In this document: in pieces, positions 960 through 19,314 of the stretch
Numbering within the stretch: position 1 is the stretch's first letter
Layout: each line of letters starts with the position of its first letter
Virus record (IMG/VR): IMGVR_UViG_3300025168_000564
Span: 1-26,387 of that record
Source: a virus
DNA: 26,387 nucleotides
Strand: one strand, 5' to 3'
Position numbers and translations under genes: made by a program
Notes under the pieces: generated by a model
Database searches by the model: none
Told to the model about the DNA's origin: nothing
The model's input: only the letters and a program-made list of their open reading frames with translations

Positions 960-1021
960 ATCAAGTCTATCTCAGGGTTAAAGGATGCCTTGAGTCCCTA
1001 AGATAGTTGCGGCGTCTTGAT
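960..1021 (-). other. Folded element between last gene and terminator
   Basis: On the minus strand an 11-bp stem (CTATCTTAGGG with CCCTGAGATAG, one wobble; 996-1006 with 967-977) encloses a small AAGG-CAT-CCTT hairpin. An outer ATCAAG/CTTGAT pairing (1016-1021 with 960-965) closes the whole. It begins at the stop codon of the last gene and runs straight into the terminator hairpin. It may be a 3'-end protective structure or the body of a small RNA released by the terminator. It lacks tRNA features. Confidence 0.45.
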
Positions 1022-1515
1022 CAACCGTTAACCTCACCCAAGGCAGGTTCTTCTCCTAGTAGAACTCCGTCACTTGTAACTATAAACTCGTTACGGTGTT
1101 TTCCTGGAATGTTTTTGAACTCGTCAAAGAACTCGCGAAACTCATCGCTATCGTAAGTGCGGTACTTCGGATTCTTGTTCATCCGGTCTTTAACGTAGTC
1201 TAGCAAATCGTTCAGCCACGCTTGTCGAGCGTCTTTCCAAGCGATTGTCTGTATTGGTTCGAAGCCGATGTTTTCCACCCAGCCTTCGGTAAGTTCTGCA
1301 ACGTAGGGGTTCACAAAACTGTATGTGATCGCCATGTCAAATACGTTCGGCATAGCCGTTCGCATATCCATCAATACACCAGTGTCTGTAGTGCACACTA
1401 GTTGGTGTGCTTCGAACATCGCGCCAGCGTATCGTGTTGCAATGTCATCGGGCCACCTGTAGTAATCCCTGAGGAATGGCATGATGATTGTTGAGTGATA
1501 GTCTGATCTATCCAT
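1021..1515 (-). CDS. Hypothetical phage protein, 164 aa
   Basis: I do not recognise this family. The start is set at 1515 (MDRSDYHS) because AAAGGAGAAC lies just upstream; an extension to 1629 would swallow the intergenic hairpin and the preceding gene's stop. The protein is mixed alpha/beta, rich in aromatic and acidic residues, with no signal peptide, membrane segment or cysteine motif. It is the last gene of the long leftward block and is separated from the preceding gene by hairpin module D1. After its stop come a folded element and an intrinsic terminator. Codon use resembles that of its neighbours, so it is a real, probably early-expressed accessory gene of unknown role. Confidence 0.7.
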   Translation of the reverse strand: MDRSDYHSTIIMPFLRDYYRWPDDIATRYAGAMFEAHQLVCTTDTGVLMDMRTAMPNVFDMAITYSFVNPYVAELTEGWVENIGFEPIQTIAWKDARQAWLNDLLDYVKDRMNKNPKYRTYDSDEFREFFDEFKNIPGKHRNEFIVTSDGVLLGEEPALGEVNG

Positions 1516-1522
1516 TGTCGTT

Positions 1523-1589
1523 CTCCTTTCTATTGGTTTAAGTGTTTCTTGGAATGGCCTTCTTTCGAAGGCCGCTCGGAGAACTACTC
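1523..1589 (-). repeat. Intergenic hairpin module D1
   Basis: This is one of two related spacers. On the minus strand it has GAGTAGTTCTCCGAGC, a perfect 7-bp hairpin GGCCTTC-GAAA-GAAGGCC (1556-1573, GNRA-type loop), AAGAAACACTTAAACCAATAG, and then the ribosome binding site AAAGGAG. There is no T-run after the stem, so it looks like an mRNA processing or stability element, not a terminator. Confidence 0.75.
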
Positions 1590-1966
1590 TATCCTGAATA
1601 CGGTGTATCGTACCAACGTATTGGTTCATAGTATGTAGCGGGTCCGTTCGTCCACACGTCGAATTTGTAATGCATTCCTGGGTATTGTTTTCCGCGAGGG
1701 TTGTGCCAGTGAAATGTAACTACTTCGACGGGTCCGAAGTTTTTGTGGTCGACATCGGTGATGTCTCGGTGGTTAGCTAAGTCAATCACGAACTCTTCTA
1801 TGGTAGGTCTTAGTTCGTGTAAGTTAAGATCTCCAATTTCTTTTTCTTTAGGCTTTTCGATAACCCCCCAATCGGCAGGGTCACTCAATACCCAGAACTC
1901 GTCGCTCAGGTAATGCTTGATAAGTTCTGGTCCCTCTATAAAGAGTTGTTCATACTCATTTCTCAT
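1589..1966 (-). CDS. Hypothetical phage protein, 125 aa
   Basis: This protein is unrecognised. The start at 1966 follows AGAAAGGAAGAAAGAC, a good ribosome binding site. The N-terminal half is acidic and helical (residues 1-75); the C-terminal half (about 80-125) is rich in Trp, Tyr and His (VVTFHWHNPRGKQYPGMHY) and probably forms a small beta domain. There is no membrane segment. It lies between hairpin modules D2 and D1, each with its own ribosome binding site, so its translation is likely independent of its neighbours. The setting, among other tiny genes near the end of the early block, suggests an accessory host-interaction gene, which is an inference from position only. Confidence 0.7.
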   Translation of the reverse strand: MRNEYEQLFIEGPELIKHYLSDEFWVLSDPADWGVIEKPKEKEIGDLNLHELRPTIEEFVIDLANHRDITDVDHKNFGPVEVVTFHWHNPRGKQYPGMHYKFDVWTNGPATYYEPIRWYDTPYSG

Positions 1967-1976
1967 GTCTTTCTTC

Positions 1977-2035
1977 CTTTCTATTGGTTAAGTGTTTCTT
2001 AAAGCGGCCTCGTAAGGCCGCTCGGAGAACTACTC
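1977..2035 (-). repeat. Intergenic hairpin module D2
   Basis: This is the second copy of the D module. It keeps the flanks GAGTAGTTCTCCGAGC and AAGAAACACTTAACCAATAG, but its hairpin is GCGGCCT-TACG-AGGCCGC (2004-2021), a perfect 7-bp stem with a different loop and stem sequence from D1. Conserved flanks with a swapped hairpin argue that structure is what matters. It ends in the ribosome binding site of the 1966 gene. Confidence 0.75.
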
Positions 2036-2369
2036 AGATAAAGCTAACCGTGTATGCGTGTCCGTGGCCGTCGTATATCAGTCCTACAACTTTCGTACTT
2101 CCCGTCCCGTCTCTGAAAACTAATACGATCTCATCTCCAGGCTCCATCGCCTTAGTTTTGCGTAACATAGTCAAGTCGACTCTAGCCGGTGAAATAGCCT
2201 TATCACCAAATCCCCACGGGTCGCTATCCCCTAACTCAAGCTCTGTCAGCTCGCGGTTGGGTGAGTTCTCTACCTCTTTTGCAGTCACCTGCATCAGAAT
2301 GTGTATCAACTCAGGGGTTGCTTTTAGTCTTTCGGCTACGGTCAAATCGGCAATTTTTAAGTTTTTCAT
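2034..2369 (-). CDS. Hypothetical phage protein, 111 aa
   Basis: This 111-residue protein has no recognised family. The start at 2369 follows GAGAAAGA and lies directly after repeat module C1, so it is probably the first gene on a transcript from the C1 promoter. Residues 1-40 look helical (IADLTVAERLKATPELIHILMQV). Residues 60-111 look like a small beta barrel (EPGDEIVLVFRDGTGSTKVVGLIYDG), a layout seen in SH3-like folds, though no motif proves it. Its stop overlaps hairpin module D2. It has no cysteines and no membrane segment. The function is unknown. Confidence 0.7.
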   Translation of the reverse strand: MKNLKIADLTVAERLKATPELIHILMQVTAKEVENSPNRELTELELGDSDPWGFGDKAISPARVDLTMLRKTKAMEPGDEIVLVFRDGTGSTKVVGLIYDGHGHAYTVSFI

Positions 2370-2390
2370 TCTTTCTCACTTTCTATCGGT

Positions 2391-2487
2391 TAATAAAATC
2401 CCGCCTACGGGCGCGGGGCTACCCCTATTTTAACCCGCGATTAAACGGAGTAAAAACAGTAGCGGTAAAGAACTTAAAAAGAGTTAA
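2391..2487 (-). repeat. Promoter-hairpin module C1
   Basis: This is the first of three ~95 bp modules (others at 3806 and 5107). On the minus strand the order is a T-rich lead (ACTCTTTTTAAGTTCTTTACC), TTTACT (2454-2449), 16 bases holding the dyad CCG-N7-CGG, TAAAAT (2432-2427), then GGGGTAGCCCC and a leader hairpin CCCGC...GCGGG before the ribosome binding site of the 2369 gene. The 5' TACCGCTA can pair with TAGGGGTA apart from one mismatch. Confidence 0.8.
2427..2454 (-). promoter_or_regulatory. Predicted promoter in C1 (TTTACT-N16-TAAAAT)
   Basis: The -35 hexamer TTTACT is the same as at the stronger promoters near 7979, 14514 and 19314. The -10 is TAAAAT at the same 16-base spacing in all three C modules. 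The spacer carries an inverted repeat that could be an operator. The spacing is slightly short and the hexamers are imperfect, so the call is moderate. Confidence 0.45.
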
Positions 2488-2666
2488 CTTTTGGCTCCTA
2501 ATGTTCTTCCAAGTCGCGCTGCTAGAACTACTGAGTAGTTACAATCGCTGCAGCACCTCCCTTCGGCCACTGGTGCGGCGTTATGCCCGTCGCTCCAGAA
2601 CACTATGCCCTCGGGCGTTTTCTGTACTTCAATCTCGCCTTTACAAATCACACATTCATTTTTCAT
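2484..2666 (-). CDS. Small zinc-binding protein, 60 aa
   Basis: This small protein has two cysteine pairs, CVIC at residues 5-8 and CCSDC at 38-42, separated by a conserved-looking GIVFWSDGHNAAPVAEGR stretch. This pattern is seen in many short phage and metagenomic zinc-ribbon proteins, and the four cysteines are expected to bind one zinc ion. The start at 2666 follows ATAGGAGAAACAG. It is separated by 9 bases from the preceding gene's stop and its own stop runs into module C1. No catalytic residues are visible; DNA, RNA or protein binding is the usual guess for such ribbons. The role is unknown. Confidence 0.72.
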   Translation of the reverse strand: MKNECVICKGEIEVQKTPEGIVFWSDGHNAAPVAEGRCCSDCNYSVVLAARLGRTLGAKS

Positions 2667-2675
2667 CTGTTTCTC

Positions 2676-2897
2676 CTATTGTTGTTGGTTAGAGTGTAGA
2701 GCTTCGCGTCGAACCCACTCAGGATGTAGTTCGTCGTCGTACTCTTCGACGTAATAAAACGGTTGTCCGTTTCCGAAACTAATCACTGGTAGAAGCTGCA
2801 ATGCATCCTCTACGACAGTAATTGCTCTTTCGATATTGTAGTCACCGTTAACTTCTACGTTGTCTATTACAATCCGTAACGCTTCTTTTATATCCAT
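2676..2897 (-). CDS. Hypothetical phage protein, 73 aa
   Basis: This is a short acidic protein of no recognised family. Residues 1-36 (MDIKEALRIVIDNVEVNGDYNIERAITVVEDALQLL, split by a short turn) predict two helices. The rest contains the FYYVEEYDDELHPEWVRRE stretch, which may be an extended, partner-binding tail. The start at 2897 follows CAGGAAAATAAG, nearly identical to the ribosome binding site of the next upstream gene at 3273, and only one base separates the two genes, so they are almost certainly co-transcribed and translationally linked. There are no cysteine pairs and no membrane segment. Acidic tiny proteins of this type are common among phage host-takeover genes, but no function can be assigned. 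Confidence 0.68.
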   Translation of the reverse strand: MDIKEALRIVIDNVEVNGDYNIERAITVVEDALQLLPVISFGNGQPFYYVEEYDDELHPEWVRREALHSNQQQ

Positions 2898-2898
2898 C

Positions 2899-3273
2899 TT
2901 ATTTTCCTGTGTTTGTCATATTTTTAAATGAATCTTTATCGACGCACCAAACTCCTACGAAATATTCTTCGGTGTCTATGTCAAAACGCTTCGATATTCT
3001 AAGCCTCCACTGTTGGTTGAAATATTTTCGTTTGTGTGTGTTGGCTGCAGTGTTACTCAATGATATTGATTGTTTTTTGGCCTCCTCGTGCGAAAACGGG
3101 CCAGTCTCAAAAGATTGGCCTAGTTTTAACTTTTCCATCACACGTGTGTGTGGAGAAGATGGCCTACCTTTTCTTTTCTGGGTTTTTTCTGGAAAAGGTA
3201 CATCCTCTCTAATAACTAGCTCACCCACAATGTCTTCCTGTGGTGCTTCGTAAAATTTTGGTTTAATATGCAT
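2899..3273 (-). CDS. Hypothetical basic phage protein, 124 aa
   Basis: This protein is unrecognised. A flexible N-terminal third leads into a basic patch TQKRKGRPSSPHTRV (about residues 31-45; KGRP resembles an AT-hook core). A region with the arrangement LKLGQSFETGPFSHEEAKKQSISLSNTAANTHKRK (about 49-83, split here only for description) looks like a helical DNA-binding unit. A beta-rich end, EYFVGVWCVD, follows. DNA binding is therefore plausible but unproven. The start at 3273 follows TAGGAAAATAAG; one base separates it from both neighbours, placing it in a tightly linked mini-operon (3785 to 2484). Confidence 0.68.
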   Translation of the reverse strand: MHIKPKFYEAPQEDIVGELVIREDVPFPEKTQKRKGRPSSPHTRVMEKLKLGQSFETGPFSHEEAKKQSISLSNTAANTHKRKYFNQQWRLRISKRFDIDTEEYFVGVWCVDKDSFKNMTNTGK

Positions 3274-3274
3274 C

Positions 3275-3520
3275 TTATTTTCCTATGTAGATGATGTCGG
3301 CTTTCGATATAACTTGGTACGCTCCCTTGTTATACGCCGGTGCTATGGTATATCCCTCAGTAGAGTGCCGCTCTGGTCGAGAGGTCGAGCAGGGCTTAGT
3401 CGAAAAGTGGGATGGGTAATTAATCTCTCGTAGAGCCTGTGGTACAGGCTCCGAGGGTCTGAGAGGTCGATCGGGTCGAGCAACCTTGCGGTTGCTGATT
3501 GGTTTATATCGTCTAGGCAT
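3275..3520 (-). CDS. Hypothetical basic phage protein, 81 aa
   Basis: This is an Arg/Pro-rich protein. The first 35 residues (PRRYKPISNRKVARPDRP, then LRPSEPVPQALREINYPSHF) are basic and probably disordered. The C-terminal part, YTIAPAYNKGAYQVISKADI, resembles a tail seen in many small phage proteins of unknown role. The start ATG overlaps the preceding gene's end (ATGCCTAG) and is preceded by GGAG at eight bases, a translational-coupling arrangement. An alternative frame over 3343-3534 has no ribosome binding site and is rejected. There is no membrane segment and no zinc motif apart from a single Cys. The function is unknown. Confidence 0.66.
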   Translation of the reverse strand: MPRRYKPISNRKVARPDRPLRPSEPVPQALREINYPSHFSTKPCSTSRPERHSTEGYTIAPAYNKGAYQVISKADIIYIGK

Positions 3521-3785
3521 TTGTCTTGCTCCACTCTAGGAGCATCTCATTTAGGTTATCGTAACTGTCTTTATCAGACTCACAGCTATCTCCGTCTTCC
3601 ATTAAAATCCAGTAAGTAGATTCTGGTTCTTTTGCAAATCCTCGATCTAGGTGCATCAGCAAAGCTCCTCCAAGGTGGTCGATCTTAGTGTTGTGCTGAG
3701 CCCATGACTCGAACCTCTCCTCTGGGTCTTTGATCTTGTTGTAAAACCGTTCTTCGGCCAGTTTAAACAAGTGGTTGTAATCCAT
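3513..3785 (-). CDS. Hypothetical acidic phage protein, 90 aa
   Basis: This is an acidic, largely helical protein with no recognised family. The N-terminal helix carries HLFKLAEERFYNKIKDPEER. The middle segment has WAQHNTKIDHLGGALLMHLDRGF, and the acidic C-terminus (MEDGDSCESDKDSYDNLNE) could mimic nucleic acid or bind a basic partner. The start at 3785 follows GAAAGGAGAACGTCA, a strong ribosome binding site contained in the shared AACCAATAGAAAGGAGAAC leader also found in module D1. It is the first gene after module C2 and so probably heads a transcript covering 3785-2484. The role is unknown. Confidence 0.7.
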   Translation of the reverse strand: MDYNHLFKLAEERFYNKIKDPEERFESWAQHNTKIDHLGGALLMHLDRGFAKEPESTYWILMEDGDSCESDKDSYDNLNEMLLEWSKTNA

Positions 3786-3805
3786 TGACGTTCTCCTTTC
3801 TATTG

Positions 3806-3900
3806 GTTAAAATCCCGCGCCTAAACGCGGGGCTACCCCTATTTTAACGGGGGATTACCGCGAGTAAAAACAGTAGGGGTAAAGAACTTAAAAAGAGTTA
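3806..3900 (-). repeat. Promoter-hairpin module C2
   Basis: This is the second C module and the one with the best pairing. TACCCCTA (3' of the T-rich lead) is a perfect complement to TAGGGGTA about 30 bases later. TAGGGGTAGCCCC can instead form its own GGGG/CCCC hairpin, so the two folds exclude each other. GTTAAAAT and ATTTTAAC also pair around a CCCGCG-TTTAGG-CGCGGG leader hairpin. The spacer dyad is CGG...CCG, opposite in sequence to C1 (CCG...CGG) but still a dyad. Confidence 0.82.
3841..3868 (-). promoter_or_regulatory. Predicted promoter in C2 (TTTACT-N16-TAAAAT)
   Basis: The hexamers and spacing are identical to C1 and C3. Transcription would start near 3834, placing the CCCGCG/CGCGGG hairpin at the very 5' end of the mRNA, ahead of the ribosome binding site of the 3785 gene. 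Confidence 0.45.
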
Positions 3901-4080
3901 CTAATCTACTAATTCGAATTCCTCCGGTCTGTACGTCTTTTCACACTCAGGACAGTAAATCAATTCTTCTGCGTAAACTGAGTGTTGAACTCCTACGCCG
4001 GTGTCGTGGCTGTGCATATCTTGTTCTTGATAAACTAGAGGCACATCGCAATCTTCACATTTTTCATTCATAGTTTCCAT
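3901..4080 (-). CDS. Small zinc-ribbon protein, 59 aa
   Basis: This short gene encodes a protein with two CxxC knuckles, CEDC at residues 8-11 and CPEC at 43-46, separated by a His-containing linker (DMHSHDTGVGVQHSVY). This is a classic single zinc-ribbon layout. The start at 4080 is chosen because AAAGGA sits seven bases upstream; a second ATG at 4071 is possible. It overlaps the preceding gene's end by 17 bases and its stop touches module C2. It ends with an acidic tail (EEFELVD). Such ribbons often bind nucleic acid or RNA polymerase, but nothing here fixes the partner. Confidence 0.7.
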   Translation of the reverse strand: METMNEKCEDCDVPLVYQEQDMHSHDTGVGVQHSVYAEELIYCPECEKTYRPEEFELVD

Positions 4081-4249
4081 CAGCTCTTCCTTTGTCGAGC
4101 CACTCTCCTACCCGTTCACAGCCGTGACTGAATTCTCGAGTGACTATTATTTCTTGTGGTTTCTGGTTCTCTGGGACGTAGATCTTGAATTCCCATAGAC
4201 CGTTTCGTCTTGTCGCTAGTATGTCGACTGGTTGCGCTATCTCTACCAT
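4064..4249 (-). CDS. Hypothetical phage protein, 61 aa
   Basis: This small protein of no recognised family probably forms a compact beta-rich fold: LWEFKIYVPENQ, EIIVTREF, then a C-terminal helix CERVGEWLDKGRADG. The start is set at 4249, where TAATG joins it to the preceding stop and GGAAGAG lies five bases upstream; an upstream ATG at 4282 would overlap the previous gene by 34 bases with no ribosome binding site. Both ends overlap neighbours, so 4455-3901 is a three-gene coupled set. Confidence 0.65.
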   Translation of the reverse strand: MVEIAQPVDILATRRNGLWEFKIYVPENQKPQEIIVTREFSHGCERVGEWLDKGRADGNYE

Positions 4250-4455
4250 TACATCTCTTCCTTTGGTACAAAATAACCCCATCCTGTACTCACCATCTCA
4301 GCCTGTAAAGCCGATCCGAGGGTATCAAAAGCTTGTTGTATTTTCTCATCTTCTAGGTATTCCGGTCCATGATCGTCGGCTAATTTAGTCCAGAGCAGGT
4401 TGATTGCTTGGATTGTTTTTATCCGAGTTTTTAATGTAAGTTCTTCTTCTTTCAT
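4249..4455 (-). CDS. Hypothetical phage protein, 68 aa
   Basis: This is a mostly helical small protein (EEELTLKTRIKTIQAINLLW, then a second helix through EKIQQAFDTLGSALQAEM) with no recognised family. The start at 4455 follows ACAAAGGAAAAAA, and the extended frame to 4524 lacks a ribosome binding site. It heads the coupled set 4455-3901 and is preceded by a 232-base gap. Two amphipathic helices suggest a helical bundle or dimer. There is no cysteine or membrane motif. The function is unknown. Confidence 0.65.
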   Translation of the reverse strand: MKEEELTLKTRIKTIQAINLLWTKLADDHGPEYLEDEKIQQAFDTLGSALQAEMVSTGWGYFVPKEEM

Positions 4456-4687
4456 TTTTTTTCCTTTGTTAGTTAATAATGTAGTGGTTGAAACAATTGA
4501 CAGCAAATTACAAAACACACTCACCTTTACATCAGTGTGCCGGTGCCACCGTACAGCATCATTTCTTTTTTAACCTCTCCCAACATACTGCATTGGGGGG
4601 CTTAACACAGACACAGATTTCTCTGTGTTGGACCTGTGAGGAATACCCATCCGACGCCACTACTCTCCGGATTTGATGAGGCACCTT
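4456..4687. other. Intergenic region with one perfect hairpin
   Basis: This 232-base gap holds a perfect 7-bp hairpin ACACAGA-GAAA-TCTGTGT (minus strand, 4611-4628) with the same GAAA loop as module D1. A minus-strand GTG frame of about 41 codons follows in frame after the stop of the 4688-5086 gene; it has no good ribosome binding site and is not called. There is no clear promoter and no T-run after the hairpin. Confidence 0.5.
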
Positions 4688-5086
4688 TTACTTCCACTCT
4701 TCGTAATCTGTTGTCACTCTTTTAGCTAAATGTTCAGGGATCTCTGGTAGAGTTTTCGAAAGCAGCATGTACCAGCCACACTTGCTACACTCTACTGCGT
4801 TATATTTTGTTTCATCTGGTTTATCAAAACTAAACCACTCTGAACAATTTAGGCATATTGTTGCATCGCCGTCCATTTGTTCGTAGAGTATGTCTAGCTC
4901 GTTACCTTCTTTTTCGTAAAAATCATTGAACACCATATCTAAGAACTCTTGTTCCGTCTCAAACTTGCTGCGAAACTCAGGGGTGTACTTGTGTTCATTA
5001 CCGTTGTATCGAACTACCGTGATACCTGTTCCGTCTCCAATTATTTCGGCCTTCATATGAAGAACTTCGTCGTAGACTTCTTTCAT
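4688..5086 (-). CDS. Zinc-ribbon protein, 132 aa
   Basis: This protein has an N-terminal domain of about 75 residues (including GDGTGITVVRYNGNEHKYTP and an acidic helix through QEFLDMVFNDFYEKEGNEL) followed by a zinc ribbon. The first knuckle is CLNC near residue 78 and the second is CSKC near 98, with WFSFDKPDETKYNAVE between them. The C-terminal helix is charged. The start at 5086 follows AAAGGAGAAAAT, and the gene lies directly after module C3, so it is probably the first gene on the C3 transcript. The N-terminal part is not recognised. Nucleic acid or protein binding is likely from the ribbon; the specific role is unknown. Confidence 0.72.
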   Translation of the reverse strand: MKEVYDEVLHMKAEIIGDGTGITVVRYNGNEHKYTPEFRSKFETEQEFLDMVFNDFYEKEGNELDILYEQMDGDATICLNCSEWFSFDKPDETKYNAVECSKCGWYMLLSKTLPEIPEHLAKRVTTDYEEWK

Positions 5087-5106
5087 ATTTTCTCCTTTCT
5101 ATCTTT

Positions 5107-5191
5107 CTAAATTCCGCTAATACGCGGCTACCCTATATTTTAACCCGCGAAAAAGCGGAGTAAAAACAGTAGGGGTAAAGAATTAAAAAAG
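5107..5191 (-). repeat. Promoter-hairpin module C3
   Basis: This third C module has the same T-rich lead, TTTACCCCTACTG, TTTACT and TAAAAT as C1 and C2. The spacer dyad is CCGC-TTTTTC-GCGG and the leader hairpin is CCGC-GTATTA-GCGG. The long-range TACCCCTA/TAGGGTA pairing has one bulged base. Stem sequences differ from the other copies while pairing is kept. Confidence 0.78.
5137..5164 (-). promoter_or_regulatory. Predicted promoter in C3 (TTTACT-N16-TAAAAT)
   Basis: This has the same hexamers and spacing as the C1 and C2 promoters and lies about 50 bases upstream of the 5086 start codon. Confidence 0.45.
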
Positions 5192-5272
5192 ACCCGTTTC
5201 GATCTTAAGTGGGTCAAGCTCACTGTGTTTTTGGTGACAAGAACAGGTTAGGGGAGTCTGTTCGCGGAGGAG

Positions 5273-5422
5273 TCACCTCAGACCTCCATCTATTCTAGTC
5301 TTGTTTCGTTTCTGTAGAAACTGGTAAATTATGGCTTGGGGTACTACAAAAAACACTACTGCTGTTTCGATTCCAAGGTTATGGTAGACTACTGCAGACA
5401 GTCCAAATAATAAATACTCCAT
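5273..5422 (-). CDS. Small membrane protein, 49 aa
   Basis: This short gene encodes a hydrophobic protein: residues 2-14 and 20-36 (TAVVFFVVPQAIIYQFL) are apolar, and a basic tail (QKRNKTRIDGGLR) would face the cytoplasm. It has one confident membrane span and a possible second. The start at 5422 follows GGGAGGGAGA. It lies 15 bases after the preceding stop. A holin-like, superinfection or envelope-interacting role is conceivable for so small a phage membrane protein, but no lysis gene is adjacent and nothing supports a choice. Confidence 0.55.
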   Translation of the reverse strand: MEYLLFGLSAVVYHNLGIETAVVFFVVPQAIIYQFLQKRNKTRIDGGLR

Positions 5423-5437
5423 TCTCCCTCCCATTGC

Positions 5438-5551
5438 TTAACGCTGTTTCAGTATCGTTAGCTTTGTTCGTTCCCAAAACTCTTTCATTCTTGGGTCGGT
5501 TGTTTTAGCCGCTGCTTGGCTAACTGCTTGGATTCGTTGTGCTTGGTTCAT
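5438..5551 (-). CDS. Small helical protein, 37 aa
   Basis: A 37-residue, basic, almost wholly helical peptide begins MNQAQRIQAVSQAAAK and ends WERTKLTILKQR. The start at 5551 is chosen because GGAGAATAGA precedes it; longer frames to 5563 or 5656 lack a ribosome binding site or overlap the preceding gene. It lies between the 129-residue and 49-residue genes with short spacers, supporting a real gene in the same transcript. No family is recognised; an amphipathic peptide that binds a host protein is one guess. Confidence 0.5.
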   Translation of the reverse strand: MNQAQRIQAVSQAAAKTTDPRMKEFWERTKLTILKQR

Positions 5552-5604
5552 TCTATTCTCCATAAAGTGGTCTGGGGGCCGAAACCCCCTTTCCACGTGT
5601 TTTG

Positions 5605-5994
5605 TTACCCGATCCGCTTGATGAAACCCTCCTCGACTAACCGTTGCTTGTAGCAAGCAATTATTCGTTTTTTCTGGTTCTCAGGTTTCTTCGTGTTGGG
5701 CATCGCTAAGACACCTTCTTCAACACACAAGTCTACGAGCAGCTGTAACGTAAAGTCTTTAACATCAAATGTTTTAGACTCTATGTCCCCTGACATACCG
5801 TGAATTAAAGCTAGACACTGAGGTGTCGGTGGCTTTAGCTCCTCGGCTTTTTTACCTGTGTAAACAAAACGCTGTAGTGCCCTACCGCTCTTTTCAGTCG
5901 TGGGGGCAGGAATGCCGTTCTTATTACCAACAGGTTTTGCTGGCGCAGTTTTTGCCTTCGTTGCCGAAGGGCTTTTTGCAGATGCTACTGCCAT
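5605..5994 (-). CDS. Hypothetical DNA-binding-like protein, 129 aa
   Basis: The first ~38 residues are Ala/Lys/Pro-rich and low in complexity (AKSPSATKAKTAPAKPVGNK), like the basic tails of histone-like or nucleoid proteins. The rest forms an alpha-helical unit: LQRFVYTGKKAEELKPP, then FTLQLLVDLCVEEGVLAM and KKRIIACYKQRLVEEGFIKR, whose end resembles a winged-helix recognition helix and wing. The start at 5994 follows ACGGAGAAATACT. It is the first gene after the 6052 promoter and a leader hairpin. Chromatin or transcription modulation is plausible by composition, but I do not recognise the family. Confidence 0.6.
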   Translation of the reverse strand: MAVASAKSPSATKAKTAPAKPVGNKNGIPAPTTEKSGRALQRFVYTGKKAEELKPPTPQCLALIHGMSGDIESKTFDVKDFTLQLLVDLCVEEGVLAMPNTKKPENQKKRIIACYKQRLVEEGFIKRIG

Positions 5995-6017
5995 AGTATT
6001 TCTCCGTTCTACTTTCT

Positions 6018-6047
6018 ATTTAAAGCTGCTCTAAAGAACAGCCGGTT
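6018..6047 (-). other. 5'-leader hairpin before the 5994 gene
   Basis: On the minus strand GCTGTTC pairs with GAGCAGC (one wobble) around a TTTA loop, lying between the predicted 6052 promoter and the ribosome binding site. It parallels the leader hairpins in modules C and after the 7950 promoter. Confidence 0.55.
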
Positions 6048-6051
6048 TACT

Positions 6052-6080
6052 ACTTTACTACTTCTTTACCTAAAGGTAAA
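6052..6080 (-). promoter_or_regulatory. Predicted promoter with -35 dyad
   Basis: TTTACC (6080-6075), 17 bases, then TAAAGT (6057-6052). The -35 lies inside a perfect inverted repeat CTTTACC-TTTA-GGTAAAG, a possible operator. The -10 is weak, so confidence is moderate. Confidence 0.4.
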
Positions 6081-6083
6081 GGA

Positions 6084-6281
6084 CTAATGCTTGAGGTCTG
6101 GGTCTTGGTTGACATATGCCGACGTAGGCCCAGACTCTTCCTCTGGATAAAGAATTCCATTTAGGTCATCTAAAGAAAGTTCTAAAAGTTTAACATCATT
6201 TTTTATGGCATCTGTCAAAAGACGAAGCCCTTCTAAAATTTTGTCTATATCTTCTATTGCGTTCTCTATTTGTTTATCCAT
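6084..6281 (-). CDS. Small acidic helical protein, 65 aa
   Basis: This coiled-coil-like protein has residues 1-45 (MDKQIENAIEDIDKILEGL, then LLTDAIKNDVKLLELSLDDL) showing heptad spacing of Ile and Leu. The acidic tail is probably disordered. The start at 6281 is chosen because TAATG joins it to the preceding stop and GGAGG lies eight bases upstream; a TTG five codons earlier is unlikely. No family is recognised. The arrangement 6583-6084 is a coupled pair, so it may work with the 100-residue protein encoded just before it. Confidence 0.65.
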   Translation of the reverse strand: MDKQIENAIEDIDKILEGLRLLTDAIKNDVKLLELSLDDLNGILYPEEESGPTSAYVNQDPDLKH

Positions 6282-6583
6282 TATGTTGTCCTCCAAACTC
6301 GGACCCCGCTACATTCTTTTTTGGTTTTAGGATTCTCTTCTAAAATAATACGAGAAGTAAAAGTCCAAACAGGATCTTGTTTCTTACTGTGAGTACGCCA
6401 AGACTGATCTAGTCGGTTCTTTAACCGCTTAGATGTGTCGTTGTCGTCATCAGGCGCAAAAAACTTAGAGTTCCCTTTTTTGAATATCGGCCAAGGGTAT
6501 CGACTACCTCTAGCACCTCTCGTATCACTCGGTATAGGGATATCGGTGTCTAACTCGACATCTTCCCATTCATTATCAATCAT
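6281..6583 (-). CDS. Hypothetical phage protein, 100 aa
   Basis: This protein has an acidic, disordered N-terminus (DNEWEDVELDTDIPIPSDTR), then a basic segment GARGSRYPWPIFKKGNSKFF and a long helical or beta part ending in CSGVRVWRTT. I recall similar small proteins in marine phages but cannot name a function. The start at 6583 follows AGGGGAATAAA. Its stop is joined to the next start by TAATG. The RY/KK/W-rich middle could bind nucleic acid. There is no cysteine pair or membrane segment. Confidence 0.65.
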   Translation of the reverse strand: MIDNEWEDVELDTDIPIPSDTRGARGSRYPWPIFKKGNSKFFAPDDDNDTSKRLKNRLDQSWRTHSKKQDPVWTFTSRIILEENPKTKKECSGVRVWRTT

Positions 6584-6584
6584 T

Positions 6585-6851
6585 TTATTCCCCTATCGGA
6601 TTATGTATACGTTCTCTTATCGGAGACGCCCATTCATCTAGTATCTCTTCTTGTTCAGCAAACTCGTCGGACAGACCGCAATTTTGGTCGTACATCTTAA
6701 GCGCAAGGATCTCTGCTAATATTTCAGCATCGTTACGCAAAGGGAGAGAAGACTCCCCTCCCTTGCGTAAAAAGTTCACCATTGCCCAGACTTTACTGAT
6801 AAGATCTTGATCTAGTACAACATGGTTGTGAAGTTTTACTACTTCTCCCAT
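6585..6851 (-). CDS. Hypothetical phage protein, 88 aa
   Basis: This is an acidic helical protein of no recognised family (MGEVVKLHNHVVLDQDLISK at the start, and a charged run EFAEQEEILDEWASPIRERI near the end). The start at 6851 directly follows the DUF932 gene's stop (TAATATG), and the longer frame to 6920 would overlap that gene by 68 bases. The ribosome binding site is weak, suggesting re-initiation after the DUF932 gene. One base separates its stop from the next start. A role linked to the DUF932 protein is possible from coupling alone. Confidence 0.62.
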   Translation of the reverse strand: MGEVVKLHNHVVLDQDLISKVWAMVNFLRKGGESSLPLRNDAEILAEILALKMYDQNCGLSDEFAEQEEILDEWASPIRERIHNPIGE

Positions 6852-6852
6852 A

Positions 6853-7878
6853 TTAAGCTGCCTTTGCGTAGTCAACTGCAAGCCCAAGAGCTTGTGTCTT
6901 ACGCTTAGAGCTATCACCAAATAGAGCGTTGTAAACTCTATTCTCGCCGGTACGCATATGGTCCTCTACATAGGTAACTGCGTTAACCGCTCCCCACCAA
7001 GTACCCTTGGCTGAAGCTAAGTTTGCTCCAGGAGATTGTTCTAACGCGTCAACTACTAAGTTCGAAAACTTGCTGAACTCATCTCGTAACGGGGTGATCT
7101 CACCAACCTTCTTGCCGTCTGCTTTAAGGGTTCGGCTTTCTATATACTCATTGTATACTGCAGGTTGGTAAATCCTAGCCACATACTCTAGTACGGTGGA
7201 GTGTTGAGCTTTCTTCTTGGACAAGAACTCAGCTGTTTGTTGGAACTCAGCTGTCGTTTCTTTCATAAGACCAACTGCCATAGCCGCTTCCCTAGCCATA
7301 TCATCATTAAAGTCATGAATGTGGCTCATACGGAACTCGCCTTTAGCTTCCTTACCTAGTGCGAATTGCAGTGTGTTATTGCACACAACTCGTATTTCGG
7401 TATCGCGTACCAGTAATTTATGTCCAGGTTCGTGAGGTTGTCTAAACAAGAGGTAGTCGTTAATTTCGTCTCCTCCTGGAAGCTCAAACCCACCGTTCAG
7501 TTTAGCGAGTGCCCAGATGTCTTTGCCGCCGCGTAAGCTACCGGCAGTTTCCATCGTGACGTTCGTCTCTTTAGCAAACTTCTGAAAGAAGTCGAAGATA
7601 CGCTCGTTTTGTACGGGTAGGTAGTTTGCTCCGCAATGTCCTAGGATGGAGTTGTCCGTATCCCTAACAATAAAGTTACTGTTGGGGGTTTGGATTAACC
7701 CAGAATCGTCCCCGTAAACGGGGCTGTCGATTGTGTATCCTGGACGTTTGCTAACAGACCAATCAAGTCCTGCCGCAACCATCATTTCTTTAGGCGTTAG
7801 GTTAGCGTCGACTTTTACGCCTTCGCCATGCCATGGGACATCACCTGTCCACGCCATCGTTTCTACTGCTGCAACCAT
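6853..7878 (-). CDS. DUF932 phage/plasmid-like protein
   Basis: A 341-residue member of the DUF932 family (also known as TIGR03299, phage/plasmid-like protein), recognised by the opening VETMAWTGDVPWHGEGV, the middle YLPVQNERIFDFFQKFAKE, and the end MRTGENRVYNALFGDSSKRKTQALGLA. Family members are widespread in phages and plasmids; their biochemical role is not established, though links to DNA recombination or maintenance have been suggested. The length is normal for the family. The start at 7878 follows CAGGAGCATCCTT. It is the first gene after the 7950 promoter and a stable leader hairpin, and so is probably well expressed. It is followed by four coupled or closely spaced small genes. Confidence 0.85.
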   Translation of the reverse strand: MVAAVETMAWTGDVPWHGEGVKVDANLTPKEMMVAAGLDWSVSKRPGYTIDSPVYGDDSGLIQTPNSNFIVRDTDNSILGHCGANYLPVQNERIFDFFQKFAKETNVTMETAGSLRGGKDIWALAKLNGGFELPGGDEINDYLLFRQPHEPGHKLLVRDTEIRVVCNNTLQFALGKEAKGEFRMSHIHDFNDDMAREAAMAVGLMKETTAEFQQTAEFLSKKKAQHSTVLEYVARIYQPAVYNEYIESRTLKADGKKVGEITPLRDEFSKFSNLVVDALEQSPGANLASAKGTWWGAVNAVTYVEDHMRTGENRVYNALFGDSSKRKTQALGLAVDYAKAA

Positions 7879-7921
7879 AAGGATGCTCCTGTTCTACTTT
7901 CTGTTCCCTTTCGGGGCTTTG

Positions 7922-7942
7922 GTAAGCGGCGTGCCGCGTTAC
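7922..7942 (-). other. 5'-terminal mRNA hairpin after the 7950 promoter
   Basis: On the minus strand GTAAC-GCGGC-AC-GCCGC-TTAC forms a 9-bp stem with one bulge, starting right at the predicted transcription start. It may protect the 5' end of the transcript or act as an operator. Confidence 0.6.
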
Positions 7943-7949
7943 CTTTATA

Positions 7950-7979
7950 AGTATACGGGGGGACTTTTTGGAAAGTAAA
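7950..7979 (-). promoter_or_regulatory. Sigma-70-like promoter, TTTACT-N18-TATACT
   Basis: TTTACT at 7979-7974 and TATACT at 7955-7950 are separated by 18 bases in the intergenic gap ahead of the DUF932 gene. The element CTCCTTTACTTTC around the -35 recurs at 14509 and, as CCCCTTTACTTTC, at 19309. Confidence 0.7.
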
Positions 7980-7997
7980 GGAGTAAACTAAAAGAAT

Positions 7998-8372
7998 TTA
8001 AAAGAGTTTTAAGAGCCGTTCCCATTCGTACGGAGACTTTAAATGGAGTAATGGCTCGCTTTTCCACGTCAATTCTTTTAGCTGCGCTAGGTCTACTATC
8101 TTAAATAATTTTACTTCTCTCTGTTTTTGTACCAAGACGTAACACGTCCCTCCAAACTTAGCTCTGGTTGCCATCCATGAAATCTGCATGGGACTCAAGG
8201 TCAGCTGGTTTCCTTTGATAGACTTAAGTTCGATCCAGAATTCTCTTCCTTGATAACAGCAGTTGACATCGGGAACTCCTGCTGCGGTAATCCCCGTTTC
8301 GATTCTTTGTAAATGAAGCTGGTTCTTCAGGCTGGTTTTTAACGAATTCCAGAGTCGTGCTTCTTTAGGCAT
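7998..8372 (-). CDS. VRR-NUC domain nuclease
   Basis: This 124-residue protein matches the VRR-NUC branch of the PD-(D/E)xK nucleases, found in phage replication modules and in FAN1, where it cleaves branched or flapped DNA. The active site reads GVPD (D35), then EFWIELK (E48, K50) and the downstream Gln of LSPMQISW (Q63), in correct order and spacing. It has only the nuclease domain, as is typical of phage stand-alone members. A Holliday-junction or structure-specific endonuclease role in replication or recombination is the family expectation. It overlaps the preceding HTH gene by 8 bases and is the last gene of the polymerase operon. Confidence 0.85.
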   Translation of the reverse strand: MPKEARLWNSLKTSLKNQLHLQRIETGITAAGVPDVNCCYQGREFWIELKSIKGNQLTLSPMQISWMATRAKFGGTCYVLVQKQREVKLFKIVDLAQLKELTWKSEPLLHLKSPYEWERLLKLF

Positions 8373-8610
8373 CTTTTAAATTCACTTTTTGCTCTTTTAT
8401 GTAAATTTGCCTTGCTCTCGTGGCAGAAATTCCATGATCTTCGCCAATATTTTTAAAAGATCTCCCTGCTTCTCTTTGTTTATAGATAACAGGGTTTCTC
8501 CAATTAAAATATTCAATGTGGTCATCAAATCCACTATTCTTAAGAAGATTAATCCATTTTTTAAATCTTATCTCTCCTTCATCTTCAGTCTCTGTAGAAA
8601 TAATCCCCAC
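8365..8610 (-). CDS. Sigma-70 region 4-like HTH protein, 81 aa
   Basis: The C-terminal part carries a helix-turn-helix of the sigma-70 region 4 type: YKQREAGRSFKNIGEDHG followed by ISATRARQIYIKEQ. It probably binds DNA or modulates RNA polymerase. The start is unusual. The only usual codon is a GTG at 8610 that overlaps the AGGAGG ribosome binding site, with a stop two codons upstream; an in-frame ATT five bases after AGGAGG (8604) is better placed, so initiation at ATT is possible. It overlaps both neighbours. A second, related HTH protein is encoded immediately upstream. Confidence 0.68.
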   Translation of the reverse strand: MGIISTETEDEGEIRFKKWINLLKNSGFDDHIEYFNWRNPVIYKQREAGRSFKNIGEDHGISATRARQIYIKEQKVNLKDA

Positions 8611-8776
8611 CTCCTAGTCTCGATCGGCTTACAATCTGCCAAATTCGCTGTTTAGTCAACTTATATTTCTCTCCGAGTGAAGCTAGGGTGGTGTTTCCTT
8701 TAGAATATTCCTCGTAGATTTTCCGATAGAGTCGACGATTCTTTTCTTTCTTTTTGTCACTAATACCTTTACTCAT
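8585..8776 (-). CDS. Sigma-70 region 4-like HTH protein, 63 aa
   Basis: This small basic protein begins MSKGISDKKKEKNRRLYRK. A helix-turn-helix follows: YEEYSKGNTTLASLGEKYK, then LTKQRIWQIVSRSR, a typical region 4-like recognition helix. The start at 8776 is set by the ATGA overlap with the DNA polymerase stop; a longer frame would run back into polymerase. It overlaps the next HTH gene by 26 bases. It may regulate transcription or redirect host RNA polymerase. The pairing with a second HTH protein suggests either a duplication or a two-component regulator. The function is inferred from the motif. Confidence 0.68.
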   Translation of the reverse strand: MSKGISDKKKEKNRRLYRKIYEEYSKGNTTLASLGEKYKLTKQRIWQIVSRSRLGGGDYFYRD

Positions 8777-10635
8777 TCTGCAGAGTCTCCCCATGTTTTC
8801 CCATACTCTGCGTCTACTATTAGTGGGACTGACAGATCCACACAGTTTGCCATTTTTTCCATAATAAATTCACCTTCTTTTTCCGATTCGACCGAGTAGT
8901 CAAGCTCGTCATGGATTTGTAAATGAGGAACATATCCCTCTTTCCAAAGGTCTAACATCGCAATTTTCGTCATGTCTGCTGCTGAACCTTGAATTAGCCT
9001 ATTCAGTGCTTTATAGGTATAGGCGCGTCGAACATTCCCGTAGAGATCTCGTGCTTCCGATTCTTCTAATGGTAATCCATCCCCATGGACAGGTTCCCAT
9101 CGGTCAAATCTGCACTTTCTCCCTCCGAGTGTTTTTATATGTCCTCGCTCTAAGGCCACCCGAGCACACTGATCTTGTAACGCTCTAATGAACGGTACTC
9201 TCTGGTGGTACGTCTCGAGTAGAGCACGAGCTTCGTCTTCCTCTACCCCAAGTTCTTTAATAAGTTTCGTATGACCCATGCCATAGGTCAGTCCGAGGTT
9301 GATATTTTTTGCTTGTTTCCTAGGGATATTAGCCATATCGGCTACGATCTGGTGGAAATCCGCTCCTTCTTCGGAGTAAGCCCTAACCGCGTCTTCTGCC
9401 CCCCGTAAGCCCATCTTATACGCGTAATGCACCGTTAATCTAGGTTCCTGCTGAGAATAGTCGAAAGCCCCCCAGATCGCGTTTTCTTCCGGTATAAAGA
9501 GTGACCGAATTAACTTGCCTAATTCTGGGTCTCTCGCTGGAACTTGTTGTAGATTCGGGTTCGAGTAGCTAAATCGACCGCTTACAGTGCCTCCCGAGTC
9601 GTTTCTAAGAGGGTGAGCTTCTGCGTGTATCCGACCGTTAACTTGGTGGCCTAGTATCATTTTCTCGATAAACGAGGTCCGAGCTTTGTTCAGCTTCCGA
9701 GCTCTTACAATCATTTTAGGTAGAGGGTGGTCATGAGCCTCTAGCCAAGGTGCTTGGAAACTTGCCATTCCTTTCTCGGTGCGTGGATACCAAATATCGT
9801 TAGCATCAAACGCTTTCTGAATCGAGGCGTTAGCCCAAAGCTCTACCGTAGTGCCGTACTTTCTCTTAAACTCGACCAGTATCTGTTGCTCTTTCTTCGA
9901 CAGCTCTTCAGCTACTTGTTCTGCTCGGTTAGTATCAATCCGAACACCCTTCCATCGCATTGCAATCAGTAATGGAATCAAGTCACATTCTAGTTTAAAA
10001 ATCTTCTCAAGCCCTTCTTCTTGTATCCGAGGGTAGAGCTGGTTCCACAATTGTAGAGTAAGAACTGCGTCTTGTTCTGCGTAAGGTCCAACGTATTTCG
10101 CAGGTAATGCGTAGAGTCCAGACTTAGCGTTAACTCCCCAAGATTTAGCGGCGGCTTCTAGGAGAGACTCGTCTTTCTCCGAGGCACAGTAATCTTTGCC
10201 TAGCGCGTTAAGCGAGTAGCCTCGTCGGTGCTCATCTAATAAAGGAGCTGCGAACATCGTATCGTAGATCTGACACGTTATTTCAATCCCCTCACGCTTC
10301 AACCAACCTACGTCGTAGAGCGCATTGTGAAAGATTAAAGACCCTTTGTGGTTTGTTAGTGTGCGTTTTAACCAACGCATTACTATCTCTTCCTCTAAGT
10401 TCCCCCCGCCTTCATGCCTTATCGGTAAGTATCCGCTCCATGAAGCAGAGGCAATAGCAATACCCACTATGTGGCCATCGCCTGTCGCCCACCCAGGACC
10501 GCGTTGCCGCAAAGAAGGGTCGTGCGTTTCTAGGTCGACAGCTAATAGCTCGTTTTCATCGAACCGAGGCAGAACATCGGGGGCTACCCAACTACTCTCT
10601 GGTGTTATTAGTGGTATCTGTGTCTGGATCATCAT
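8773..10635 (-). CDS. polA: DNA polymerase, family A, with 3'-5' exonuclease
   Basis: This 620-residue replicative polymerase has a proofreading domain with DLE (D34, E36), HNALYD (D108) and YAEQDA (Y185, D189). The polymerase motifs are A, FDYSQQEPR (D392); B, R439-K443-L447-Y451G; and C, HDE at 575-577. All catalytic residues are present. It lacks the 5'-3' exonuclease domain, as expected for phage PolA. The residue matching E. coli Phe762 is Leu (447). It overlaps the preceding gene by 44 bases and starts ATGATG with GAG seven bases upstream. Its setting with primase, helicases, SSB-like protein and nucleotide enzymes makes it the main phage replicase. The symbol is by family only. Confidence 0.95.
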   Translation of the reverse strand: MMIQTQIPLITPESSWVAPDVLPRFDENELLAVDLETHDPSLRQRGPGWATGDGHIVGIAIASASWSGYLPIRHEGGGNLEEEIVMRWLKRTLTNHKGSLIFHNALYDVGWLKREGIEITCQIYDTMFAAPLLDEHRRGYSLNALGKDYCASEKDESLLEAAAKSWGVNAKSGLYALPAKYVGPYAEQDAVLTLQLWNQLYPRIQEEGLEKIFKLECDLIPLLIAMRWKGVRIDTNRAEQVAEELSKKEQQILVEFKRKYGTTVELWANASIQKAFDANDIWYPRTEKGMASFQAPWLEAHDHPLPKMIVRARKLNKARTSFIEKMILGHQVNGRIHAEAHPLRNDSGGTVSGRFSYSNPNLQQVPARDPELGKLIRSLFIPEENAIWGAFDYSQQEPRLTVHYAYKMGLRGAEDAVRAYSEEGADFHQIVADMANIPRKQAKNINLGLTYGMGHTKLIKELGVEEDEARALLETYHQRVPFIRALQDQCARVALERGHIKTLGGRKCRFDRWEPVHGDGLPLEESEARDLYGNVRRAYTYKALNRLIQGSAADMTKIAMLDLWKEGYVPHLQIHDELDYSVESEKEGEFIMEKMANCVDLSVPLIVDAEYGKTWGDSAE

Positions 10636-10912
10636 ATCTAATCTCGTGTTCTACTAGAAGTAAGTATCGCCGTAGGTCTCCGATATCGTCTAAGAGACCG
10701 TCTTCCCCGTTATACTTACCCCCTGCCTCAAAAATATCGTAATTACAAACTTTGCTCTGTTGCTCAATGCGATCAAACTTACGAGCGAGCATCATAAACG
10801 CTCCTGTCCCGCCTCTACGCTTCCACGAATCCCCGTAAGATTTCTCAGACTCGATTAAACTATGTAGATCGTTTTGTGCGATCTCTTTTATGTCTCCCCA
10901 TTTACTAGCCAT
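10592..10912 (-). CDS. Nmad1/DUF1599-like protein, 106 aa
   Basis: This is an all-helical protein with the run SYGDSWKRRGGTGAFMMLAR, then KFDRIEQQ and a C-terminal GEDGLLDDIGDLRRYLLLVE. I recognise this as resembling the DUF1599 family, named nucleotide modification associated domain 1, and more distantly the MazG-like helical nucleotide pyrophosphohydrolases, with acidic and basic residues (E, D, D, R, K) spaced for metal and phosphate binding. The start at 10912 is set by the ATGGCTAG overlap with the ThyA-family gene; the frame extending to 11029 is rejected as it lies inside that gene. The place between the ThyA-family gene and polymerase supports nucleotide metabolism. The exact substrate is unknown. 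Confidence 0.6.
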   Translation of the reverse strand: MASKWGDIKEIAQNDLHSLIESEKSYGDSWKRRGGTGAFMMLARKFDRIEQQSKVCNYDIFEAGGKYNGEDGLLDDIGDLRRYLLLVEHEIRYDDPDTDTTNNTRE

Positions 10913-11963: not shown

Positions 11964-12192
11964 ATAGACTCTCCGTGTTGTTGATTAAGACCTGTTCTAT
12001 CTGTAGACGACTAAGTTGAGCTTCTCTGCGTTCATGGACTTGTTGCTGAGAAATCCATGTAATTGCATCTCTCCATGTACTAGGGATGCTGTGATCTTTC
12101 ATACATTGTTGTAAGAACTGCCCGTATGTGACTAAAATCCACTTCACTTTGAGTTCGGAAGTTTCCATAATGTGTTGTTTTAACTTCCCCAT
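11950..12192 (-). CDS. Hypothetical phage protein, 80 aa
   Basis: This is a helical, Gln-rich protein of no recognised family. It contains KVKWILVTYGQFLQQCMKDH, a central WRDAITWISQQQVHERREAQ, and a final helix with RLQIEQVLINN. The start at 12192 follows CAGGAGAAAGCAA and overlaps the preceding gene's end by 13 bases; its own stop overlaps the ThyA-family start by 14 bases. Conserved placement between two candidate base-modification genes makes it a candidate partner of them, but only by position. There is no metal or nucleotide motif. Confidence 0.65.
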   Translation of the reverse strand: MGKLKQHIMETSELKVKWILVTYGQFLQQCMKDHSIPSTWRDAITWISQQQVHERREAQLSRLQIEQVLINNTESLYEGD

Positions 12193-13969: not shown

Positions 13970-14460
13970 TATATTTTCCACCATGTTGGTTTGCGGCTAG
14001 GGTCTTTTTCCCATTTAGCAAAATGTTGTTTTTCATTCATTAGATAATTTTGATAAGATGAGACAGTATCCTCGGATTTATACTCGTCAGGCATCGCTAA
14101 TGCGAAATCGTATGGTTGTTCTAAAACAACTCCAGGTTTAAATGGCATTTGTTTTAACGGCTCGGTGAGCCTAGTAGATGCATGGGTTTTTCCGTAACGA
14201 TGTGTGTACTCGTTACACAATGCAATGAAGTGGTCGTATAACCACTGGTAGTTTTCTCGAGCTAATCGAACCCAAATACTACAGGGGTGATTAAGATGTG
14301 CGGTTTTATATAGTTCGTGTTCGTCTGCATATTCTGCAGAATATTCTCGCCAAGCCGTAGACAACATCTGGGCAGACTCGAGTACCATTTTTACGCAGTG
14401 TTTATCACATTGTTCTTGTGCACTTTTTACGGGGCACAGATCAGTTACGAATATATTCAT
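13969..14460 (-). CDS. Conserved phage protein with CDKHCVK motif, 163 aa
   Basis: This protein opens with MNIFVTDLCPVKSAQEQCDK and continues HCVKMVLESAQMLSTAW, then LYKTAHLNHPCSIWVRLARE and LYDHFIALCNEYTHRYGK, ending DPSRKPTWWK. The family is common in marine phages and is sometimes annotated as a pyrimidine-dimer glycosylase-like protein. The C-terminal KPTWW and Lys-rich end are weakly like DenV, but the evidence is thin and I leave the function open. The conserved Cys, His and Asp residues could form a metal or catalytic site. The start at 14460 follows AGAAAGGAGAAATAA. It is the first gene after the 14485 promoter and heads the whole modification and polymerase operon. Confidence 0.7.
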   Translation of the reverse strand: MNIFVTDLCPVKSAQEQCDKHCVKMVLESAQMLSTAWREYSAEYADEHELYKTAHLNHPCSIWVRLARENYQWLYDHFIALCNEYTHRYGKTHASTRLTEPLKQMPFKPGVVLEQPYDFALAMPDEYKSEDTVSSYQNYLMNEKQHFAKWEKDPSRKPTWWKI

Positions 14461-14484: not shown

Positions 14485-14514
14485 ATTCTACTTTACTTTT
14501 TATTTGAAAGTAAA
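14485..14514 (-). promoter_or_regulatory. Sigma-70-like promoter with -35 dyad, TTTACT-N18-TAGAAT
   Basis: TTTACT at 14514-14509 and TAGAAT at 14490-14485 are separated by 18 bases. A perfect 9-bp inverted repeat CTTTACTTT/AAAGTAAAG covers the -35 and spacer, which could be a repressor or activator site. It lies between the UvrD-like gene and the 14460 gene. Confidence 0.7.
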
Positions 14515-19284: not shown

Positions 19285-19314
19285 AGTCTAAGGGATAAGT
19301 CCTTGGAAAGTAAA
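19285..19314 (-). promoter_or_regulatory. Sigma-70-like promoter, TTTACT-N18-TAGACT
   Basis: TTTACT at 19314-19309 and TAGACT at 19290-19285, 18 bases apart, lie in the divergent gap and point left toward the SSB-primase-helicase block. The shared CTTTACTTTCCAA core links it to the 7950 promoter. Confidence 0.7.

Follow-up and report, generated by a model that had tools for sequence, protein, structure and literature searches.

The virus record analysed here (26,387 bases, called the window throughout) carries three copies of a short promoter–leader cassette, C1–C3, and in related phages we find a family-wide class of promoters that are commonly followed by a small hairpin. The explanation that we favour, and hold to be moderately probable, is that these are sigma70-type promoter cassettes whose mRNA would start with a protective 5′ hairpin and which would be gained, lost and exchanged before small genes. 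On this explanation, host RNA polymerase, perhaps with a phage factor, would start about 7 nt past the −10 hexamer, so that the mRNA 5′ end would lie at, or just ahead of, the small hairpin; an unpaired stretch would come next, then a ribosome site of the GAAAGGAG type and the start codon. The hairpin would work through its pairing and not its letters; by keeping the 5′ end double-stranded it should slow 5′-end-dependent decay, and it would also keep the ribosome site free from upstream pairing.

The window and its three cassettes

The long genes of the window lie mostly on the minus strand. Its region from 1000 to 8000 gave no DNA match in the phage collection searched, and the nearest named phage by primase is DSL-LC04 (45%), a lake phage with Gammaproteobacteria as its recorded host. 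The DNA polymerase of the window matches phrog_17 and shares 48% identity with a DSL-LC04 protein annotated as DNA polymerase I; a DUF932-like protein has its best matches in Methylophilales phages (37.5%), and there is a weak Dda-like helicase match among the window proteins (E 4e-8). In twenty scans of the proteins of this fragment against two libraries, none of the matches named was a T4 structural gene. About 21 tandem GTAGA copies occupy positions 1–105, at the extreme end of the contig, and are either an assembly artefact or a true terminal repeat. A match to the 5-hmdU DNA kinase helical domain (12180–13136, minus strand, E 3e-44) and a thymidylate-synthase-family protein (10905–11963, minus strand) together suggest hypermodified thymine in the DNA of this phage, which could have an effect on the reading of T-rich promoters.

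The three copies of a promoter–hairpin module described in the first-pass annotation are borne out. They form a 75-nt repeat, C2 and C3 being 89% and 73% identical to C1, and all three lie on the minus strand, each directly upstream of a small gene (Table 1). The promoter motif TTTACT-N16-TAAAAT is exact in every copy (minus-strand starts 2454, 3868 and 5164), and the pattern TTTACTN{14,18}TTAAAATA has three matches in the window, against none with the reversed-pattern control. The T-rich lead and the spacer letters of C1–C3 likewise agree with the earlier description, and each copy has a leader hairpin whose letters differ from copy to copy. The upstream block of 21 bases has a single match among viral contigs (L004), which lies in surroundings without sign of the module and was taken as chance. 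The products of the genes behind C1–C3 have no match at E 0.001 in PHROG or Pfam; for the C3 protein, a peptide-pattern search gave no relatives, and tblastn in loci fetched by other means gave many among the matches listed.

Table 1. Promoters, leader hairpins and associated genes in the window
Feature	Position	Strand	Details
C1 promoter	2427..2454	-	TTTACT 2454-2449, spacer 2448-2433, TAAAAT 2432-2427
C1 leader hairpin	2400..2417	-	CCCGC..GCGGG
Gene behind C1	2034..2369	-	111 aa
C2 promoter	3841..3868	-	TTTACT 3868-3863, TAAAAT 3846-3841
C2 leader hairpin	3814..3831	-	7 bp
Gene behind C2	3513..3785	-	90 aa
C3 promoter	5137..5164	-	TTTACT 5164-5159, TAAAAT 5142-5137
C3 leader hairpin	5114..5127	-	4 bp
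Gene behind C3	4688..5086	-	132 aa
Standard promoter before gene 5605-5994	6052..6080	-	TTTACC-N17-TAAAGT
Leader hairpin of gene 5605-5994	6024..6043	-	8 bp, UUUA loop
Standard promoter before DUF932-like gene 6853-7878	7950..7979	-	TTTACT-N18-TATACT
Leader hairpin of DUF932-like gene	7921..7943	-	
Candidate promoter reader	8585..8794	-	69-aa helix-turn-helix protein resembling sigma70 region 4 / Mor
Standard promoter before gene 13969-14460	14485..14514	-	TTTACT-N18-TAGAAT; short leader, without hairpin
Standard promoter before gene 18908-19255	19285..19314	-	TTTACT-N18-TAGACT; short leader, without hairpin

A family-wide promoter class

The DUF932-like protein served to fetch fifty related loci, from which, with further pieces, a two-block weight matrix was built. 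The consensus of the class is TTAGTGC-TTTACT-TTCG ... TAAAGT, that is, TTAGTGCTTTACTTTCG and then aGTAAAGTAtTA, with a spacer mostly of 17 or 18; among the 147 cores of the final matrix set the corresponding gaps of 11 and 12 occur in 103 and 37, respectively. At 14 bits or more the matrix gave 491 matches against two on reversed sequence, with duplicates counted on both sides of this comparison. Measured in-sample on related cores, the information content is about 21 bits for the extended −35 block, more than is usual for a sigma70 −35, and about 9 bits for the −10 block. An earlier matrix with a wrong gap had drifted, giving 4062 matches on reversed sequence, and was discarded; a generic sigma70 scan was at chance level, with 28 sites found against 30.8 expected. 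A literature search, mostly of openly accessible papers, found no account of such promoters.

The 503 raw site records were reduced to 188 distinct sites with a recognised ribosome site and start, and these to 46 clusters at 75% identity, of which 38 were kept. Clusters 4, 31, 34, 35, 38, 39, 42 and 45 were dropped, five of them judged antisense or coding artefacts and the other three (34, 38 and 39) for a doubtful −10; two of these three had p<0.05. Within the window the matrix finds four standard sites on the minus strand, starting at 19314, 14514, 7979 and 6080; a fifth match, near 6055 on the plus strand, is the dyad twin of the site at 6080. The promoters at 14514 and 19314 precede the MNIFVTDL and MTVFVVQEV genes, and their short leader without a hairpin is found likewise in the grouped relatives. 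Before the DUF932-like gene, CTTTACTTTC is present in the window and in the related locus L006, and TACTTTTTT replaces it in L005, L007 and L008; other promoters of the L005, L007 and L008 phages retain a TTTACT motif.

None of C1–C3 is found by the class matrix at 10 bits (C3 scores −7.2 and C2 −10.2), and our support for the cassette explanation is slightly lower because these scores are so low. From their letters, C1–C3 look like a divergent sub-type of the class. We read them so because they have in common with it TTTACT, a −10-like hexamer, near-equal spacing, a leader hairpin and the ribosome-site region; because the cassette before one gene, the MPRRYK gene, is C-type in L005 and standard in L006; and because some sites are intermediate, that of L030 at 13097, for instance, combining a standard −35 with a C-like leader.

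Folding and covariation of the leader hairpin

The first 36 nt after the −10 were folded and compared with dinucleotide shuffles in the 29 kept non-redundant clusters with leaders of at least 32 nt. The mean z was −2.28 and 19/29 leaders reached p<0.05, compared with 1/29 for the 36 nt upstream, 5/27 and 3/27 for coding stretches and 3/29 for stretches taken from TTTACT. A 40-nt version of the test (cut 28 nt, n = 32) gave 18/32 at p<0.05, and grouping by downstream gene gave a median p<0.05 in 13 of 21 families; these counts are not independent, since the clusters have common ancestry. In held-out loci, after 83 matches lacking a recognised ribosome site and start had been set aside, 30 new long leaders had a mean z of −1.11, with 10/30 at p<0.05, and the corresponding upstream stretches a mean z of −0.42, with 3/30; the hairpin effect is present in the held-out set but weaker, about half of the first. 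Taken singly, the leader hairpins of C2 and C3 are weak or borderline, with p = 0.080 (C2) and 0.045 (C3) for the 40-nt leader and p = 0.147 and 0.061 for the 36-nt leader; these single-copy values cover C2 and C3, the C1 leader having merged into another cluster. The leader-hairpin signal comes from the promoter class rather than from C2 or C3 singly. In DSL-LC04, leaders before a ACATACAGGAG-like motif gave p<0.05 in two of six, which is suggestive only.

The first paired base of the hairpin lies 6–11 nt past the −10 in 24 of the 29 leaders, and its loop has four bases in 16. Transcription starts about 7 nt after a −10 hexamer, and if it does so here the hairpin would stand at the predicted 5′ end of the mRNA. 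Such a position would suit a protective role, because RppH and RNase E depend on single-stranded 5′ ends, and this accounts for the stabilising effect of structures there, as outlined in PMC3997798; the mRNA of T4 gene 32 is stabilised by a 5′ hairpin, according to the summary in PMC8948821. Nine of the 38 clusters have leaders shorter than 32 nt and were left out of the 36-nt test. The three of these that were folded in the 40-nt test gave nothing (p = 0.25, 1.0 and 0.40), and eight of the nine belong to three genes whose standard promoters have a short, hairpin-free leader; the hairpin is, then, not required for use of the promoter.

Comparison of orthologous leaders gave six compensatory pairs, in five of the 16 groups that had three or more distinct leaders; this count has no shuffle control, and two of the six pairs come from a group of clusters excluded in the other analyses. 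One pair in the leader of the 5605–5994 gene, for example, is C-G in L005, U-G in L006 and A-U in L007. RNAalifold gave no structure in five of the 16 groups. In the leaders of the DUF932-like gene, where one pair is A-U in the window and G-C in L005, the covariation score counted on a hand-given stem was 0.144 compared with 0.092 for shuffled leaders, and one shuffle in 500 scored as high; double-change pairs numbered 2 against 1.6 in shuffles, which is no excess, and RNAalifold found no structure in these leaders, the alignment of which has indels and register shifts. The earlier claim that leader pairing is kept while the letters change is supported for the class by the folding excess and the compensatory changes, and many messages in this phage family probably carry at their 5′ end a small RNA hairpin whose pairing persists as the sequence varies.

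A stem-loop in this position might instead be an intrinsic terminator against read-through from the upstream gene, like that of the promoter-early stem-loops considered below, so that promoter and terminator would together insulate neighbouring genes. The leaders of C1 and C2, with ATTTT after the stem, belong to the more T-rich ones, and C1 has a hairpin listed as terminator-like; TTTT is found within 9 nt past the stem in 8 of the 29 leaders. However, only 4/29 have at least five T in the eight bases after the stem; four leaders have exactly four T there and 15 have two or fewer. Judged by these tracts, terminator function would not be general among the leader hairpins, and we regard insulation by terminators as a rather unlikely explanation of the cassettes.

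We also considered that the dyads might be DNA operators of a repressor or activator, with the RNA pairing incidental. Several promoters have partial dyads between −35 and −10 when inspected by eye, for example CTTTACTTTC...GTAAAG, and the ESAS promoters of cluster K mycobacteriophages contain inverted repeats of unknown role, according to the outlines in PMC3203893 and PMC11373665. Yet the leader stems vary in both letters and length within one phage, unlike the site of one protein, and the excess of pairing falls after the −10 and not in the spacer; operators are accordingly an improbable source of the pattern, and we retain the RNA hairpin as the preferred reading.

Spacer dyad and long-range complementarity

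The dyad that the first-pass annotation placed in the promoter spacer does not hold up as a feature of the class: the mean z of the spacers was −0.43, with 3/38 at p<0.05 and 12/38 folding to nothing, and in the held-out loci the mean z was −0.39, with 4/39 at p<0.05. When the spacers of C1, C2 and C3 were compared with shuffles of the same 16 letters, p was 0.045, 0.128 and 0.001, respectively, by energy, and 0.54, 0.24 and 0.42 by stem length. Among C-type spacers elsewhere, the form found in L005 and L007 gave p = 0.006 by energy and that of L005 at 12436 gave p = 0.63. These values leave room for a spacer dyad as a feature of the C sub-type.

The same annotation had proposed a TACCCCTA/TAGGGGTA long-range stem in competition with a local hairpin, and hence a structured promoter–leader switch with alternative stems. 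The complementarity is a perfect 8 bp in C2, but only seven of the eight pairs form in C1 and C3, where the register has a G-G and a C-A mismatch, respectively; C3 still folds, with CCCTA paired with TAGGG. In whole-element folding C1 was unremarkable (z −0.76) and C2 and C3 did better than their shuffles (z −2.71 and −2.90), which, together with the good pairing of some C-type spacers by energy (C3 and the L005/L007 form), speaks for a switch. On the other hand, the competing stem is not kept in four related copies, which have 5, 5, 6 and 4 of the eight pairs (5/8 in the L006 ortholog of C1), so that the two conserved, mutually exclusive structures expected of a riboswitch or attenuator were not found in these copies. 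Moreover, the 5′ arm of the long-range stem lies upstream of the −10 and would thus be absent from the RNA of this promoter, occurring in read-through RNA only; spacer pairing in the class is close to chance; and the element has no Rfam match, the sole match in the window up to E 5 being mir-247 at 3100–3182 on the plus strand, away from C1–C3, with 21.7 bits against a cut-off of 70. We consider a switch very improbable. What stands of the original description is a promoter–leader module in several copies with a paired leader, and what finds no support is the spacer dyad as a class feature and the switch; comparison with relatives thus leaves standing one of the three structures that had been proposed by eye.

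Presence and exchange of cassettes at orthologous genes

The suggestion that the module had spread among small genes agrees with what is seen at orthologs, some of which have a cassette that others lack. The ortholog of the C1 gene in L006 (the same record as L116) has kept a C-type cassette. For the C2 gene, the orthologs in L042, L114, L116 and L041 have no cassette in the approximately 85 nt seen before the start, and that in L040 has a cassette of the standard type. The MPRRYK gene is without a cassette in the window, and the hairpin of its standard cassette in L006 is unrelated to that of the C-type in L005. Early expression of the genes behind the cassettes is plausible.

A small sigma-region-4-like protein as candidate reader

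The candidate reader in Table 1 is conserved in relatives of the window phage. When its profile was compared with solved structures the best match was sigma70 region 4.2 (E 3e-4), and Pfam gave Sigma70_r4 in 10 and Mor in 10 of 14 family members, the window copy matching Mor only. In-sample, each of the 18 family records that encode the protein has from two to nine promoter matches (the five of the window include the dyad twin); G018, without it, has one match, and DSL-LC04 has none. A search with the protein fetched 80 loci, and 65 of these have the promoter, compared with two on reversed sequence; of 51 primase loci, it is found in 31/31 with the protein and in 4/20 that lack it in the fetched stretch, the reversed control giving 5/51. 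Restriction to new loci, with less than 5% of sampled 60-mers in common with the matrix-building loci, gave 45/60 (two reversed) for loci fetched by the protein and, for 33 primase loci, 16/16 with the protein and 1/17 without (one and four reversed). The protein-less loci are mostly short and from more distant phages, some contigs are in both sets, and shared ancestry could explain much of the co-occurrence of promoter and protein, which is a lead and not proof. Among the 15 loci with the protein and no matrix match, L175 and L177 show CTTTACTTTC by eye. The idea that the −35 change to TACTTTTTT in L005, L007 and L008 was tied to this protein was rejected, because its recognition helix there is the same as in L006.

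A second small helix-turn-helix-like ORF (8365–8610, minus strand) adjoins the candidate reader. In the genome search the Sigma70_r4 match of the window, which is below the cut-off (E 2.3e-4), falls in this ORF and not in the 69-aa protein, and tblastn in those related loci that it covered found no relative of the ORF. DSL-LC04 has an 85-aa protein (L055, 21512–21769) annotated as an RNA polymerase sigma-G factor that was not found by the helix-turn-helix profile; that annotation may be doubtful.

In phage Mu, the small protein Mor redirects host polymerase. As there, and as in the sigma appropriation by MotA/AsiA of T4 in such accounts as we draw on, a small phage protein may here redirect host polymerase at a non-consensus −35; the present candidate resembles sigma region 4.2 or Mor by profile. 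We put forward tentatively, as possible rather than probable, a private promoter code in which a free-standing protein of about 70 aa, similar to sigma region 4, would read the extended −35 region TTAGTGCTTTACTTTCG and lend host polymerase a new −35 specificity, with the cassettes supplying a letter-free protective 5′ hairpin.

Comparison with known systems

The closest known kind of element is the promoter-early stem-loop (PeSL) of T4-type phages, to which PMC4503421 refers. PeSLs and the cassettes both combine a short sigma70-like promoter with a stem-loop, in several copies per genome and before small genes, and in both the presence of the element varies at orthologous genes. The fixed −35/−10 spacing of a sigma70-type promoter, which characterises PeSLs, is found here by sequence, the spacer of C1–C3 being 16. 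The absence or presence of a cassette at the C2-gene orthologs and its difference in type at the MPRRYK gene might reflect gene shuffling of the kind described for PeSLs. Unlike PeSLs, most stem-loops of the present class have no T-tract and so lack the sequence of a terminator; and PeSLs are described from T4-type genomes, whereas the window is a fragment in which no T4 structural gene is named.

The stabilising 5′ stem-loops of ompA, papA and T4 gene 32 resemble the cassettes, as far as the accounts consulted describe them, in that the predicted hairpin lies at or a few nucleotides from the 5′ end, its letters are free and the ribosome site is downstream; unlike those, the present hairpin recurs with one promoter class across a phage family. 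ESAS, in the outlines cited above (PMC3203893 and PMC11373665), are repeated intergenic promoter elements with 17–18 nt spacing and inverted repeats, and the cassettes are like them in all of these respects, with several intergenic copies per genome. In ESAS, however, the arms follow a conserved 17-bp consensus and the promoter lies within the element, whereas the arms here have no common letters and follow the −10; no 17-bp inverted repeat with consensus arms was found among the leaders, whose arms differ in letters and length.

Implications

If the cassette explanation is true, this uncultured family of phages starts its messages from a modular unit, composed of a promoter and a 5′ hairpin, in which pairing is selected and the letters are free. 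The cassettes would then offer a collection of naturally occurring 5′ hairpins with which to test what protects a phage message, and there would be a clear prediction that the small sigma-4-like protein reads these promoters.
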